From positions 1-26,016 of IMG/VR virus record IMGVR_UViG_3300036908_000046: DNA of 26,016 nt; one strand, 5' to 3'. A program made the translations under genes and the position numbers. Positions 2,327 to 7,086 of the stretch are shown here, piece after piece (the first letter of the stretch is position 1; each line of letters opens with the position of its first letter). A model generated the notes under the pieces. That model was not told the DNA's origin. It saw only the letters and a list, made by a program, of their open reading frames with translations, and did no database searches. Source of the DNA: a virus.

Positions 2327-2490
2327 AGCGATTCAAGGTATTGGTCTCAATCTGGTTACATCGGCCAATGTTTAGGGCGGTCGAGTGTTCCGAGCCGGAT
2401 CCCAAAGCGGTTTGGAATGGATTAGCGACCTGCGCGGACGCTGCTATTTTCTCGGCGCGGCGATGGAAGAGTGGAGAGCCGGTCGGATAA
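2323..2490 (+). CDS. 55-residue protein, function unknown
   Basis: This is a very short gene that simple length cut-offs miss. AAGGGGA at 2309-2315 precedes ATG 2323 by 7 bases, its start overlaps the previous stop (ATGA), and its stop overlaps the next start (TAATG at 2488-2492), so it fills the gap in the chain exactly. The product begins MKRFKVLVSIWLHRP and is basic, with two cysteines (VECSEP and ATCADA) that do not form a clear zinc motif. I do not recognise a family. The evidence that it is real is context and ribosome site rather than similarity. Confidence 0.6.
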   Translation: MKRFKVLVSIWLHRPMFRAVECSEPDPKAVWNGLATCADAAIFSARRWKSGEPVG

Positions 2491-2720
2491 TGTCGCGTCT
2501 CATCGTCACAGAGGATCTGGCCGAATGCCCGCAGTGTGGTGCGCCGGCTGTCAAAACGAGCGACCGCGCTCGCCAGTGCAACTCTTGCGGGCTCGCCTGG
2601 GAGCGCGTCACCGAGGACGACGAACTGGACGCCGAGGCCGAGCGTCTGGTGCGCAGCCGGGGGTGGAACGAGGAGCGCGGGCGCGCGAAGTCGATCGGCA
2701 AATTTCAAACGAGGTGGTAA
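2490..2720 (+). CDS. Zinc-ribbon mini-protein (CPQC/CNSC)
   Basis: This encodes 76 residues. The start is ATG 2490, overlapping the previous stop as TAATG; the same frame is open further upstream, but that part lies under the preceding gene. Cysteines at 13, 16, 30 and 33 (CPQCGAP and CNSCGLAW) make a classic two-knuckle zinc ribbon, followed by an acidic segment (TEDDELDAEAE) and a basic helix (RSRGWNEERGRAKS). Such ribbons usually bind nucleic acid or protein partners. No catalytic residue is visible, and the actual role is unknown. It is part of the zinc-protein cassette discussed in the findings. Confidence 0.65.
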   Translation: MSRLIVTEDLAECPQCGAPAVKTSDRARQCNSCGLAWERVTEDDELDAEAERLVRSRGWNEERGRAKSIGKFQTRW

Positions 2721-2930
2721 ATGCATAAACGGAAACCCAGCACGAAACGGTTCGAACGGATGAATGCCCAGCGCGAGAAGGCGGTCCTTTGGCTCCGGCG
2801 GAAGATGATCAACGAAGCGATGGCCGGCGGCCAGTCCGGGTTTGCGGTGCAAATGCGGCTTCAATCACTGGACACGGCTGTTTCAGTCAGCACGATTGGC
2901 TTGCGCGAGGCGCGGCCGAGGGAGCGGTGA
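2721..2930 (+). CDS. Small basic helical protein, function unknown
   Basis: This encodes 69 residues starting directly after the preceding TAA, with GAGGTGG just upstream as ribosome site. The product is very basic and helical in its first half (HKRKPSTKRFERMNAQREKA), then runs through MAGGQSGFAVQMRLQSLD to a basic end. It has no cysteines, unlike its neighbours. It ends with a TGATG overlap (2928-2932) to the next gene. The family is not recognised; RNA or DNA binding would fit the charge but is inference. Confidence 0.6.
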   Translation: MHKRKPSTKRFERMNAQREKAVLWLRRKMINEAMAGGQSGFAVQMRLQSLDTAVSVSTIGLREARPRER

Positions 2931-3145
2931 TGCAGAAGCCTGGGAAGCTACAGAAGCCGATCAAGACCGGCCCGTTGCGTAAGGACCGGCCTCCGTGCCC
3001 CGGGTGCGGCGCCTCGCCTGGGTTTGCTCATGCACCGGACTGCAGTTGGACGGTCGCTACGGACGCGCTCCAGAAGCCAAAGACAGCCCCCCGTGAGGTC
3101 ACCGACGCCGAGCACCAGAAGTGGCTCAGAGAGCAGGGGCGCTGA
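2930..3145 (+). CDS. Zinc-binding mini-protein (CPGC...H...C)
   Basis: This encodes 71 residues from ATG 2930, in a TGATG overlap with the previous stop and with GGGAG just upstream. The first 22 residues are basic (KPGKLQKPIKTGPLRKDR). Residues C23, C26, H34 and C38 (CPGCGASPGFAHAPDC) form a compact CCHC knuckle, and the C-terminus is a charged helix (TDAEHQKWLREQGR). The knuckle spacing suggests one bound zinc. I do not know a named family. The gene is coupled to the next by another TGATG. Confidence 0.65.
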   Translation: MQKPGKLQKPIKTGPLRKDRPPCPGCGASPGFAHAPDCSWTVATDALQKPKTAPREVTDAEHQKWLREQGR

Positions 3146-3402
3146 TGCCGCGGCGGGGTGTAGCCAAGGCGCCGGCGTCGCCGGCCACGCTGCGCATGCC
3201 TGGGGTCGTCTACACGCGCCACTCGCAGACGCTCTGCGTTGTTTGTCAGCGGCGCGTGCAGTGGAACGGCGACCGCTGGATTCACCTCACCGTTTTCGCT
3301 CGCGGGATCCACGATGCGCGGCCAGACCTGGGCCTGGTAATTGACTCCTCGGACACCTGGCATGCGCAGAAACTTGAGGCGATGGAAGCGGGGGAGCCCT
3401 GA
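3145..3402 (+). CDS. Small CxxC protein, function unknown
   Basis: This encodes 85 residues from ATG 3145, overlapping the previous stop (TGATG). A GTG at 3121 is in frame but lies inside the previous gene. The basic N-terminus (PRRGVAKAPASPATLR) is followed by C31-V-V-C34, then a compact region with W45 and H47 (GDRWIHLTVF) and H56. This may be a half-ribbon completed by histidines, but the second metal pair is not certain. The next gene starts in its stop (TGATG at 3400-3404). Confidence 0.6.
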   Translation: MPRRGVAKAPASPATLRMPGVVYTRHSQTLCVVCQRRVQWNGDRWIHLTVFARGIHDARPDLGLVIDSSDTWHAQKLEAMEAGEP

Positions 3403-3806
3403 TGCCCGTAACGATTGTGACCTCGAGAATCTGCCGATGTGGCTGTGGTCGGCGTTTCACTCCCAATCCAAAGCGCCCCGGCACCGAGTATTGCTACGGT
3501 CACAAGCCAAAGGTCGCTGCGCCGTCAGGGCCGACGCCCACACCCCAGCGCGACAAAGAGCGCGATCTCCGCGTCTACCGCCTTACGACCGCCACCTTTC
3601 GGCGTGAGCTCTCCACGCTCAACGTAGAAATCGAGGGCTTTGACGCGGAGATCGATCTGGCGCGGAAGATGCTGACAGCGGCTCAAGAGAGGAAGGATCG
3701 GGCGGTCGACCGCCACTTGGTGGTAAGCACGGCAGTTGAAACCCTCGAGGCCCTTATCGCCGGGCGATCTCTCGCGAGCCTGGTCGGCGCTGTGGAGGCG
3801 ACCTGA
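3402..3806 (+). CDS. CxCGCG zinc-finger protein with coiled coil
   Basis: This encodes 134 residues in two parts. Residues 10-34 carry ICRCGCGRRFTPNPKRPG and then CYGH, giving C11, C13, C15, C31 and H34, a pattern I associate with short phage proteins ending in a GH pair and likely to bind zinc. After a Pro/Thr linker, residues 60-125 form a long amphipathic helix (LSTLNVEIEGFDAEIDLARK, then TAAQERKDRAVDRH) that should be a coiled coil. It may therefore dimerise and present the zinc knuckle. It is coupled on both sides by TGATG. The function is unknown. Confidence 0.65.
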   Translation: MPVTIVTSRICRCGCGRRFTPNPKRPGTEYCYGHKPKVAAPSGPTPTPQRDKERDLRVYRLTTATFRRELSTLNVEIEGFDAEIDLARKMLTAAQERKDRAVDRHLVVSTAVETLEALIAGRSLASLVGAVEAT

Positions 3807-4051
3807 TGCTCGCTCGGTTCATTCTCTGGCTGATCCGCCGGTTCCCGATTCTGAGCGCCGACTACCGCGCGCGGCGGGTGAAGCGCAGGCAGATCTGCCC
3901 AGCGTGCGGCAATTCCGAGAAAGTCATAATTCGGTGCGACTCTTCCACAGGCCAGGTGGTCGTACAATGTCCGACCTGCCTTGCGATGTGGGCTTATAAT
4001 CCAGTCGTGCGACCGGACGTGTGGGCAAAACTGCCCAAAGTGGAGGAGTAG
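3806..4051 (+). CDS. Zinc-ribbon mini-protein with hydrophobic N-terminus
   Basis: This encodes 81 residues from ATG 3806 (TGATG overlap). The N-terminus, MLARFILWLIRRFPILSADY, is hydrophobic and amphipathic but too short and basic to be called a membrane segment with confidence. A basic stretch (RARRVKRRQ) leads to CPAC (C31/C34), C44 and CPTC (C55/C58), a well-formed zinc ribbon of the type found in nucleic-acid-binding proteins, ending LAMWAYNPV. It is the last of the coupled run; the next gene starts three bases later with its own strong ribosome site. Confidence 0.65.
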   Translation: MLARFILWLIRRFPILSADYRARRVKRRQICPACGNSEKVIIRCDSSTGQVVVQCPTCLAMWAYNPVVRPDVWAKLPKVEE

Positions 4052-4054
4052 CCA

Positions 4055-4762
4055 ATGTCAGAAGAGCACGTGCTCGTCAGGATTGAACGTCTCTTTCAGC
4101 AACTTCTCTGCGAGGTCCGCGCCATCCGGCGTGAGGTCGCGCCTCACAACTTTTCGCTGCAACTCACTCTGTATACAGGAGATGGTATGTCCTCACAAGT
4201 ACTTCCAATCACGAGTATCGCCCTCGGCGGCAACGCGCAGCTCGTTGCCCAGCTTCTGGAAAGCGGCGCGCCCTACGTGGCGCCGGCAGGAGCCGCACCC
4301 TACACCTTCGCGCCCACGATCAGTTCGAGCGACGCGAACGTCACCAGCGCACCGGCAACGGTCGATGTGACGGGCGGGGCAGTTCCCCTCGCACAGCAGT
4401 TCCTGCTTACGGACTCGGCCAATGACACCGTCGGCGCAGTTGACGCCATCACGGTTTCGGCTGTAGCTCCGGACGGCACCACGGTGACCGAGACGATCAA
4501 CGTCGGCGTCGGCCCCGCGGTCCCTGTGAACACGTTCGGCCTTTCGTTGGCTCTCTATCCAGCGCCAGGCTCCGGCCCGGTCGGACTTCGCCATGGACAG
4601 ACCCAGGCGCAACTCGATGCCGCATCTGCCCGTGTTGGCCAGGTCAATGATGGCCGCACCCAGGCGGACATCGATGCAGACAACCGGGTTGCCAGCGGTG
4701 GCCGCACCCAAACGGAAATCGACCAAGCCAATCGCGTTGCTGCAACCCGCGGCGTTCGGTAG
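4055..4762 (+). CDS. Putative beta-rich structural protein with C-terminal repeats
   Basis: This encodes 235 residues with GGAGGA (4042-4047) before ATG 4055. Residues 1-30 are a charged helix (EEHVLVRIERLFQQLLCEVR). From about residue 45 the protein is Ala/Thr/Val-rich and beta-like (SSDANVTSAPATVDVTGG, then TDSANDTVGAVDAITVS), resembling an Ig-like or carbohydrate-facing domain. Residues 181-233 are three degenerate repeats around GRTQADIDADNRVASG. A second in-frame ATG at 4187 (residue 45) has its own AGGAGA site 5 bases upstream and would give just the beta and repeat portion. Its place just before the portal gene suggests a virion accessory or decoration protein, but I recognise no family. 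Confidence 0.65.
   Translation: MSEEHVLVRIERLFQQLLCEVRAIRREVAPHNFSLQLTLYTGDGMSSQVLPITSIALGGNAQLVAQLLESGAPYVAPAGAAPYTFAPTISSSDANVTSAPATVDVTGGAVPLAQQFLLTDSANDTVGAVDAITVSAVAPDGTTVTETINVGVGPAVPVNTFGLSLALYPAPGSGPVGLRHGQTQAQLDAASARVGQVNDGRTQADIDADNRVASGGRTQTEIDQANRVAATRGVR
4595..4753 (+). repeat. Degenerate protein-level tandem repeat (3 units)
   Basis: Three consecutive units of 16-19 codons share the pattern G-[QR]-T-Q-x-x-[IL]-D-x-x-x-[AR]-V: GQTQAQLDAASARV, GRTQADIDADNRV and GRTQTEIDQANRV, starting at 4595, 4652 and 4700. At DNA level the second and third share GCCGCACCCA before diverging. They form the C-terminus of the preceding structural protein. Confidence 0.6.
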
Positions 4763-4803: not shown

Positions 4804-7086
4804 ATGGGCACCAGCCTCATTAAGACGATCGCCGATGCTTTCTCTCCGGTTTTCCGTCCAGCGGGAAACCTCATCGAGGGTGTAACGCCCGGCTCCTGGG
4901 CAAGCCCTCAGAACCCCATCCGACCCACGCTGCAGCTCGGCACCGGCATCCGGCAGTGGGATTTCACGCCTGGCATCAACCTCCAGTTCACCCCCCGCGG
5001 CGACGTCGCGATCAAGTTCCCGCAACTTTGGAACGTCTCTAATTCCTTCGATCTCTGCCGGCTGATGATCGAGACCAGGAAGGACCAGATCGTCAATCGG
5101 CCTTGGGTTATCCGCGTCAAACCGCAGCTCGGCGAGACGAAGAAGACTGCGGCTGATCGGCAGACGAAGAACCCCAACATCGCCAAGGTCACAAATCTGC
5201 TCCGCTTCCCCGACGGCGTGCATAGCTTCGACCTGTGGATACGGATGTGGCTCGAGCAGCTCCTGGTCTTTGACGCTCCCTGCATCTATCCCATCAAGTC
5301 GATCGGCGGCGACGTGCTGTCTTTGCGCCTGGTCTCTGGCGCCACCATCACACCCCTGCTCGACCAGTTCGGTTTCGTTCCCGAGCCTCCGTCGCCGGCC
5401 TACCAGCAGATCATCCTCGGGATCCCGACGGCGAACGTTGCGGCCACGGGCACCGAGAAGAAGTACTCGGTCGACGAACTGATCTACTCGCCCCGGAATC
5501 CGCGGGTTGACTCACGCTGGGGCTTCGGCCCCGTCGAGCAGATCATCACGACGCTCACGATCGGCGCCAACTGGCAGCAGACCATCAAACTCGATTTCAC
5601 TTCAGGCAACGTGCCTCGCGCATTTGTTCCGGCTCCAGAAGGATGGACAAGTCAGCAGATCAAGGATCACCAGAAGTGGCTCGACTCTATGCTGGCTGGC
5701 AACTTGGCGATGAAGCGGAGAATGATCCTCATCCCCGACGGCAAGCACAATGCACAGTTTTCGCCCCATGAAGTACTCATCGATCCGGTGATCAACGAAT
5801 ATCTCGTTCGCGTAGTGGCCTTTGCTTTCTCTATCTCGCCACAGAACATGCTCAAACAGGTTAACCGGGGCACGGCGAAAGAATCCTCTGATGTGGCTCA
5901 GATCGAGGGGCTTGAGCCCTACCTGAAGCACATCGAGAACGTGATGAACGGCCAGGTGATCGAGCGGCAGATGAAGCTCGACGACGTGGAATTCGCGTAC
6001 CTCGACGAGCGGGAAATGGATCCCGTGAAGCAGGCCCAGGTTGACACGCTCTATCTCAAAGCCTGCGCTTACAGCGTGAACGAGATCCGCGAGGCCCGTG
6101 GCGACGACCCCCGGTCCGAGCCCCAGGCTAATGAGCTCGGGAGCATGACTACTACCGGGTGGATGTCCATCTCAGACAAGCCGGCCGCTGGGTCCGAGGA
6201 CGAACCCCCGATCGGTGGGCGGCCGAAACCGGCGAAGGTCAAGAAAATTGCCAGTCTGAAGGCCCGCGCGGGCGACCTCACTCCCCACAGCCGGCAGGCT
6301 CGGAACGACTTCGCGCGCCAGCTAAAGAAGTTCCTGGCTGACCAGAAGGCGAGGGTCTCGAGCAAGGCCGCGCAGGAGTTCGGTGTCGCGAAAGCGAGTG
6401 TGGCACGTGGAACGCTTTTGAAGGACACCGACGACCGCGATCGCCGGGCTGCCGAGATCATCGCCCTGCTCGGCTGGGATTACGAGACGCTCTACGGGCT
6501 CTCGGCTCCCTATTTTGAGATCGCAGCGGAGGAAGGCGTTCACGCGGGTGCTTACCAGGTTGCGTCTAACCTTGGGGCATCGCTCCCCGGCACCATCGCC
6601 GAAGCGATGCCCAAGGCGAAGCGGGCGGCCGACGAGCGCGCTGCCGAGATGGTCGGCTACGACCTCGAGGACGATGGCACGCTCACCGAGGCCACCGCGC
6701 CGGCCTGGGCGATCTCGACGACGGCGAAGGATAGCGTTCTAACCACTCTGAAGCAGGCGATCGCGGAGGACTGGACGCCCCAGCAGCTCGAGGCCGTGCT
6801 CCAGGCCAGCGTGGTCTGGACCCCCGAGCACGGCGATCTGATCGCCGACAACGAGATCGCCAGGCAGCAGACTTTTGGCCATCTGAATGCCTGGCTTGCT
6901 TCGGGAATGGTTCTTGAGTACCAGTGGACGGTCATGGACCTCGGGTGCTGCCCACTCTGCGCCAGCTTTGCGCTGCTGGGTCCGGTAAAGGTCGGCTACG
7001 AGTTCGCCCCGATGATTTATGCGCCTGGTGCGCATCCTGCCTGCCGTTGCTGGCTGACCGTGACGAAAATCGCCGGAGAGGACTAA
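4804..7086 (+). CDS. Portal protein fused to MuF-like head morphogenesis domain
   Basis: This encodes 760 residues. AGGAGGAG (4787-4794) precedes ATG 4804. The first ~440 residues read as a portal, the dodecameric ring through which DNA enters: YSPRNPRVDSRWGFGPVEQI, DFTSGNVPRAFVPAPEGW, then FAFSISPQNMLKQVNRGTAK and the helical EGLEPYLKHIENVMN segment. A Lys/Pro linker (KPAKVKKIASLKAR) follows near residue 475. The C-terminal part ends with C716-P-L-C719 and HPACRC (744-749), the Cys/His signature of the Mu gpF family of minor head proteins. Portals are usually 400-550 residues, so the length itself indicates a fusion. Portal and MuF are commonly adjacent separate genes. Confidence 0.9.
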   Translation: MGTSLIKTIADAFSPVFRPAGNLIEGVTPGSWASPQNPIRPTLQLGTGIRQWDFTPGINLQFTPRGDVAIKFPQLWNVSNSFDLCRLMIETRKDQIVNRPWVIRVKPQLGETKKTAADRQTKNPNIAKVTNLLRFPDGVHSFDLWIRMWLEQLLVFDAPCIYPIKSIGGDVLSLRLVSGATITPLLDQFGFVPEPPSPAYQQIILGIPTANVAATGTEKKYSVDELIYSPRNPRVDSRWGFGPVEQIITTLTIGANWQQTIKLDFTSGNVPRAFVPAPEGWTSQQIKDHQKWLDSMLAGNLAMKRRMILIPDGKHNAQFSPHEVLIDPVINEYLVRVVAFAFSISPQNMLKQVNRGTAKESSDVAQIEGLEPYLKHIENVMNGQVIERQMKLDDVEFAYLDEREMDPVKQAQVDTLYLKACAYSVNEIREARGDDPRSEPQANELGSMTTTGWMSISDKPAAGSEDEPPIGGRPKPAKVKKIASLKARAGDLTPHSRQARNDFARQLKKFLADQKARVSSKAAQEFGVAKASVARGTLLKDTDDRDRRAAEIIALLGWDYETLYGLSAPYFEIAAEEGVHAGAYQVASNLGASLPGTIAEAMPKAKRAADERAAEMVGYDLEDDGTLTEATAPAWAISTTAKDSVLTTLKQAIAEDWTPQQLEAVLQASVVWTPEHGDLIADNEIARQQTFGHLNAWLASGMVLEYQWTVMDLGCCPLCASFALLGPVKVGYEFAPMIYAPGAHPACRCWLTVTKIAGED

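Follow-up and report, generated by a model that had tools for sequence, protein, structure and literature searches.

Genes between terminase and portal

The window, the whole stretch of DNA analysed, is a linear IMG/VR virus contig of 26,016 bases (IMGVR_UViG_3300036908_000046). Its head and tail genes are all located on the + strand, as are all the window features described below. The terminase small subunit (TerS, 84-419) was assigned by its PHROG, and the same protein also matches the ECF sigma-factor region 4 helix-turn-helix (PF07638, 21.5 bits against a cut-off of 21.1). The large subunit (TerL, 367-1815) is recognised by Pfam as Terminase_6N/6C and the portal gene (4804-7086; phrog_2662, E 5e-64; PF04860), the product of which is a portal protein extended at its C-terminus by a MuF-like region for head morphogenesis (a fusion), forms the right border of the interval. 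Ten ORFs lie between TerL and portal, nine of them small.

The sequence-only reading had singled out six back-to-back small ORFs at 2490-4051, and these are present as described, all on the + strand and all starting with ATG. The variable interval, which we call the slot, extends further and begins right after TerL, at about 1870. Its first three ORFs are g1870 (1870-2106, 78 aa), which matches no family and is confined to the window and near-identical contigs, g2114 (2114-2326, 70 aa), which has no zinc motif, occurs in most relatives and shows a dN/dS of 0.18-0.35, and g2323 (2323-2490, 55 aa), which is found only in window-type sequences. The six ORFs that follow are g2490 (2490-2720), the first core zinc-ribbon protein, with C13, C16, C30 and C33 encoded at 2526-2588; g2721 (2721-2930), a basic helical protein of 69 aa without Cys (dN/dS 0.20-0.42); g2930 (2930-3145), with a basic N-terminus and a candidate C-C-H-C site at 2996-3043; g3145 (3145-3402), a putative C-C-H-H zinc protein; g3402 (3402-3806), with a CRCGC..CYGHKP domain and a coiled-coil-like tail; and g3806 (3806-4051), the second core zinc-ribbon protein, with C31, C34, C55 and C58 at 3896-3979. 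In the close clade the cassette is separated from portal by g4055 (4055-4762, 235 aa). In the window, the C-terminus of g4055 (4600-4760) consists of imperfectly repeated GRTQAxxDxANRV-type units at the protein level, and the orthologues in contigs L006, L009 and L010 stop short of them.

Five of the six cassette genes do carry CxxC or CxC motifs (CPQC/CNSC, CPGC-x7-H-x3-C, CVVC, CRCGC/CYGH and CPAC/CPTC), the Cys-free g2721 being the exception. The stop/start overlaps proposed to link all six were found at five of the six starts (TAATG at 2490; TGATG at 2930, 3145, 3402 and 3806), whereas at 2720/2721 the two genes are adjacent (TAA|ATG). Simple gene duplication can be rejected as the origin of the cassette, as had been anticipated, since the zinc families are distinct and do not align with one another outside the knuckles. 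No RNA elements and no tRNAs were found.

Conservation of the putative metal sites

Knuckle motifs by themselves are weak evidence of metal sites, because residue shuffles that preserve composition yield as many knuckles (P = 0.03 for g2490, 0.09 for g3145, 0.10 for g3806, 0.30 for g2930 and 0.31 for g3402). Judged instead by conservation of the ligands, the sites of g2490, g3806 and g3145 appear to be real. C13, C16, C30 and C33 of g2490 are invariant in 12/12 sequences with identities down to 49%, and C31, C34 and C55 of g3806 in 16/16 sequences with identities down to about 33%. L101 and L103 have Asp in place of the fourth g3806 ligand, C58, and each carries a Cys at position 61. In g3145, the ligands C31, C34, H47 and H56 (3235-3312) are invariant in 6/6 sequences. 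Conservation supports the g2930 site only in part and does not support that of g3402. The constant part of g2930 is its basic N-terminus (PGELQKPVKAGxLRK), while several relatives have a rewired C-C-H-C site and L034 has none; the site appears to be dispensable.

Both g2490 and g3806 are predicted zinc ribbons, a class defined by a beta-ribbon that bears a pair of CPxC/CxxC knuckles; g2490 is placed there by its invariant Cys residues and AF2 model, g3806 by its nearly invariant Cys and a low-confidence model. The g2490 model shows a three-stranded beta-ribbon (pLDDT about 82 in this region) followed by helices, and the protein has a helical, acidic/basic tail ending in RW. The N-terminus of g3806 is a hydrophobic/basic helix, and its AF2 model is poor (mean pLDDT 59). 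Within the close clade dN/dS is 0.07-0.42, indicating purifying selection on all genes with relatives; g3402, compared with its single remote homologue, gives 0.49.

The TerL protein itself ends in a predicted zinc ribbon (C460, C462, C472 and C475, encoded at 1744-1791), the four Cys of which are invariant across the seven aligned TerL sequences. This ribbon was absent from the ten isolated phages checked, with SilentRX alone retaining part of it as CQNC. Several remote TerL proteins (L019-L024, L026, L027, L033 and L039) likewise end in a CxxC..CxxC zinc ribbon. The TerL of L034 (6627-8999) is a 790-aa ORF in which an intein-like insert splits the ATPase domain; the PF14890 match (E 4.9e-8) falls slightly short of the cut-off.

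Gene content of the slot in relatives

Viral contigs were scanned with TerL and then with g2490, g3806, g3402 and g3145, and the relatives recovered form a clade of uncultivated phages. The collection scans rest on short peptide patterns, the contigs are fragments, the relatives are not independent, and gene calls outside the slot were made with a home-made caller.

Thirteen contigs, about 10 of them distinct, span TerL to portal; g2490 and g3806 are present in every one, and their order does not change. Gene content between these two genes varies, the clade as a whole having eight or more families of zinc type, so that close relatives share the same borders but differ in what lies inside them. 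The variable slot genes include g2114, g2721, g2930, g3145 and g3402. Among the other families are a CSEC..DHDLCxRCF protein (L006, L011, L012, L103 and L104), a MVHEAL..CPRC protein (L006 and L010) and a CSCGEIF protein (L104). In L088 (458-1132; record G006), a DUF6745 gene (PF20530, E 6.7e-15) lies directly upstream of the cassette, in the place taken by TerL in other relatives.

The set and its order therefore recur beside terminase and portal: the contigs found with g2490 (13), g3806 (19) and g3145 (10) adjoin terminase and/or portal wherever the contig reaches that far. The further idea that the five zinc genes constitute one fixed functional set did not hold. Only g2490 and g3806 are obligate; g3145 is frequent, and all 10 contigs found with it belong to the same clade, the g2930 site appears dispensable and g3402 is probably recent cargo.

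Small genes with at least two knuckles make up 16/47 of those in the slot and 16/143 of those elsewhere in eight related records, an enrichment of about four times in odds (Fisher P = 6e-4, which is optimistic because the eight records are related). Zinc mini-genes also occur outside the slot, in the non-structural region of records G002, G004, G005 and G008 (loci L113-L120 and L123), examples being KQGLCRDCGLN..CxxC and CEAQ..PCIACGSP..YCxxCL proteins. The zinc bias of the slot is clade-specific: among isolated phages whose TerL is related, most have either no gene or a single gene at this place, and none of the 13 slot genes of Dinoroseobacter R5C has a zinc knuckle. Homologues in isolated phages were found neither for g3806 nor for g3402, and g2490 gave one insignificant match. 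The portal profile found no relative among 84,980 prokaryote species genomes. TerL gave only relatives at 48-55% identity, in four MAG contigs, and the cassette is absent wherever their downstream side is present. Sporadic echoes of the zinc genes were seen in remote contigs (L017, L020, L033, L039 and L040), among them a g3806-like protein that L039 (profile E 8e-8), and perhaps L040, encodes in the interval from TerL to portal.

Gain and exchange of single genes

The g3145|g3806 junction exists in several states, in every case at TGATGC. In L010 and L103 it carries no cargo and the two genes are joined directly by TGATGCTCGC. L006 has a 110-aa ORF at this point and the window has g3402. In L009 and L088 a leftover TGATGCTCGC is followed by an N-terminal membrane segment on g3806. 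Outside the window and near-identical contigs, g3402 was found to have a single homologue (37%), which lies upstream of TerL by about 3 kb in record G001 and retains the CxCGC and GHKPK elements. Together with the junction alignment, this distribution suggests that g3402 is cargo that arrived recently between g3145 and g3806.

L006 and L010 differ by one whole ORF at a TGATGC junction, a difference of 333 nt; its flanks match at about 95-97% in the two contigs, and identity falls to about 75% farther out. Synonymous divergence between the two is 0.61 in TerL, 0.12 in g3145, 0.21 in g3806 and 0.50 in portal (P 1e-13), and it varied gene by gene inside the slot in all eight pairs tested (P 2e-3 to 2e-14). 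Both signs of exchange looked for in an accessory slot, mosaic divergence and clean presence or absence of genes, are thus seen. The near-identical flanks together with the gene-by-gene jumps in divergence indicate that single ORFs are gained or exchanged and that tracts recombine. That the TGATGC junctions are themselves the joints of exchange is suggestive only, because selection for coupling would give the same pattern. The cargo does not appear to resemble morons in the strict sense, with their own promoter and terminator: one promoter-like and eight terminator-like sites were found, about the level in shuffled sequence.

In every close pair g3806 has a synonymous divergence near 0.2-0.3, regardless of that of its neighbours, which may reflect either frequent exchange or a hidden sequence element. 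Three g3806 orthologues (L009:4672-5004, L088:2785-3117 and L012:7968-8300) have a strong N-terminal transmembrane segment (KD19 2.1-2.6), and in L009 and L088 the original g3806 start is left as a remnant upstream of the extension. By the positive-inside rule, the basic stretch after the segment in these three proteins would place the ribbon on the cytoplasmic side.

Lar-type cargo and other family matches

None of the cassette proteins of the window falls into a named family. Four relatives (L005, L009, L088 and L090) carry a predicted Lar-type restriction-alleviation protein in the same slot. The L009, L005 and L088 proteins lie above the PF14354 cut-off of 28.6 bits (32.2 bits for L009) and match phrog_599 (7e-9), and that of L090 scores 26.7 bits, just below the cut-off, with phrog_599 at 3e-8. 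Restriction alleviation of this type is the only family-level function in the slot, and it is found in relatives, not in the window, where proteins reach only 14.7 and 15.5 bits and the CPFCG..AWNxR pattern is absent. We considered g2490 as a divergent Lar and rejected it: weak profile matches repeat, but a profile-profile control of g2490 against g3806 scores as high or higher. Against Lar these comparisons gave 26% for g2490 and 45% for g3806, and 75% for g2490 and g3806 with each other, so that the Lar likeness of the window proteins is generic zinc-ribbon similarity. The suggestion that anti-host proteins are parked in the late operon is thus supported in part, by the Lar-type proteins of the four relatives, but the window's own proteins are not Lar-like beyond a generic zinc ribbon.

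The slot proteins scanned have no match to an HNH family. No match was found in Pfam or NCBIfam to the DksA/TraR zinc-finger family, and Ogr/Delta (PF04606) gave 12.4 bits with g2490 against a cut-off of 26.3. The best solved-structure match of g2490 is TFS4, a weak one (E 1.4e-4). For g3806, Elf1 (PF05129) scores 19.8 bits against a cut-off of 29.8, with a PDB profile E of 0.004, and ranks first in Foldseek at an E of only 0.26. In searches of defence-system families the sole matches were weak ones, between g2490 and large proteins with a zinc ribbon.

Interpretation

We hold with moderate confidence that this is an accessory slot in the late operon, in which host-directed variable cargo is framed by two fixed zinc-ribbon proteins, probably with packaging or late functions. 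The cassette would be the variable interior of this slot, between terL and portal of the late (head and packaging) operon, where the relatives show that small, mostly zinc-binding ORFs come, go and swap, between and around the two fixed genes, as whole stop/start-overlapping units, each incoming ORF remaining in the translationally coupled chain. Cargo would enter by recombination between phages that share the conserved anchor genes. Its zinc ribbons may dock on a host protein or nucleic acid, so that the cargo would target the host or its defences. The variable members are taken to be host-directed because Lar-type restriction alleviation is the only family-level function in the slot, and by analogy progeny genomes might be protected if a protein of Lar type were expressed late. 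The fixed g2490 and g3806 would act with the packaging or late module, g3806 perhaps at the membrane. Such a function is favoured because the pair is linked to TerL and portal; the weak TFS4 and Elf1 matches would fit a role in transcription. Being so constant, the two may also have nothing to do with the cargo and belong to the core assembly factors.

A possible though rather unlikely alternative is that the zinc mini-proteins, or g2490 and g3806 if not the others, serve as packaging or head-assembly accessories, zinc-ribbon adaptors for TerL and portal with a role like that of terminase-adjacent HNH proteins. The strict linkage to TerL and portal over the whole clade fits this, as do the slow evolution of g2490 and g3806, the conserved zinc tail of TerL, the membrane-type extension of g3806 beside the portal gene and the g3806-like protein in the corresponding position of L039, perhaps also of L040; PMC5304195 describes HNH endonucleases as components of phage packaging machines. 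However, no slot protein matches HNH or another packaging family, most phages with a related TerL are without such genes, and a packaging role cannot hold for every one of the variable members. It is less probable again that the small zinc ribbons are transcription factors which, like TraR/lambda Orf73 or Ogr, have late promoters or the host RNA polymerase as their target. Transcription zinc ribbons are the best matches among solved structures, TFS4 for g2490 and, by Pfam, PDB profile and Foldseek alike, Elf1 for g3806, and small zinc phage proteins that bind RNA polymerase exist (PMC9239242), but all these matches lie under the family cut-offs and zinc ribbons are generically alike, DksA/TraR and Ogr gave nothing significant, a late-operon position would be too late for an early switch, and a membrane extension would be odd in an RNA polymerase factor. 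That several motifs are random pairings of Cys, as small GC-rich ORFs may contain, and that their clustering means little, is very improbable: single knuckles do appear in 9-31% of residue shuffles, the g2930 site is gone in L034 and g3402 is without conservation, but ligands are invariant in g2490, g3806, g3145 and TerL, dN/dS is far below 1, zinc mini-genes are enriched in the slot and g2490 has a predicted zinc-ribbon fold.

The accessory slot also has a bolder form, which we regard as a long shot: a dedicated array for ORF exchange, with g2490 and g3806 serving both as recombination anchors and as partners of TerL and portal. The TGATGC joints would let single anti-host zinc proteins swap while coupled to the packaging genes, and the products might be made late so as to enhance methylation of progeny DNA or be carried in the virion.

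As an accessory slot, the interval would be a compact place in phage genomes where small host-directed proteins collect, and its fixed frame eases the finding of more cargo. Recurrent cargo of a recognised anti-restriction type makes the uncharacterised neighbours testable candidates for counter-defence, and the packaging module has, linked to it, a conserved pair of zinc-ribbon proteins that are unnamed in annotation libraries.

Comparison with known systems

Long inserts between TerL and portal occur in Microbacterium phages, with 17 ORFs in Quhwah (cluster EC) and 40 in Hendrix (a singleton); the accessible part of that report (PMC7302621) mentions neither a zinc bias nor a fixed zinc-ribbon pair, whereas here the cargo is mostly predicted to bind metal and is framed by two constant genes. 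Lar proteins (PF14354, phrog_599) are likewise small zinc-knuckle phage proteins and the matching ones share the slot in the four relatives, but the window proteins differ in score and lack the Lar pattern. Phage lambda Ral, a functional analogue of Lar-type proteins, speeds up modification (PMC12707154). The HNHE of GVE2 is a small zinc-binding packaging protein (PMC5304195), and the slot proteins scanned differ from it in having no HNH domain. Lambda Orf73, of TraR/DksA type, is a small zinc phage protein acting on the host (PMC9239242), whereas the slot proteins have no match to that family and differ in Cys spacing and tails.

In the literature searched we found no paper on terminase-linked small zinc-ribbon proteins, nor a fixed zinc-ribbon pair with an exchangeable, mostly zinc-binding interior. 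The anti-phage hotspots of P2 and P4 (PMC9122126) resemble the slot in being fixed loci, flanked by conserved phage genes, at which cargo related to defence is exchanged; they carry antiviral systems, whereas here the cargo consists of single ORFs held in a coupled chain within the head operon. Slots of this type and small zinc phage proteins are already known, and what appears to be new is the zinc bias and the frame of two core genes.
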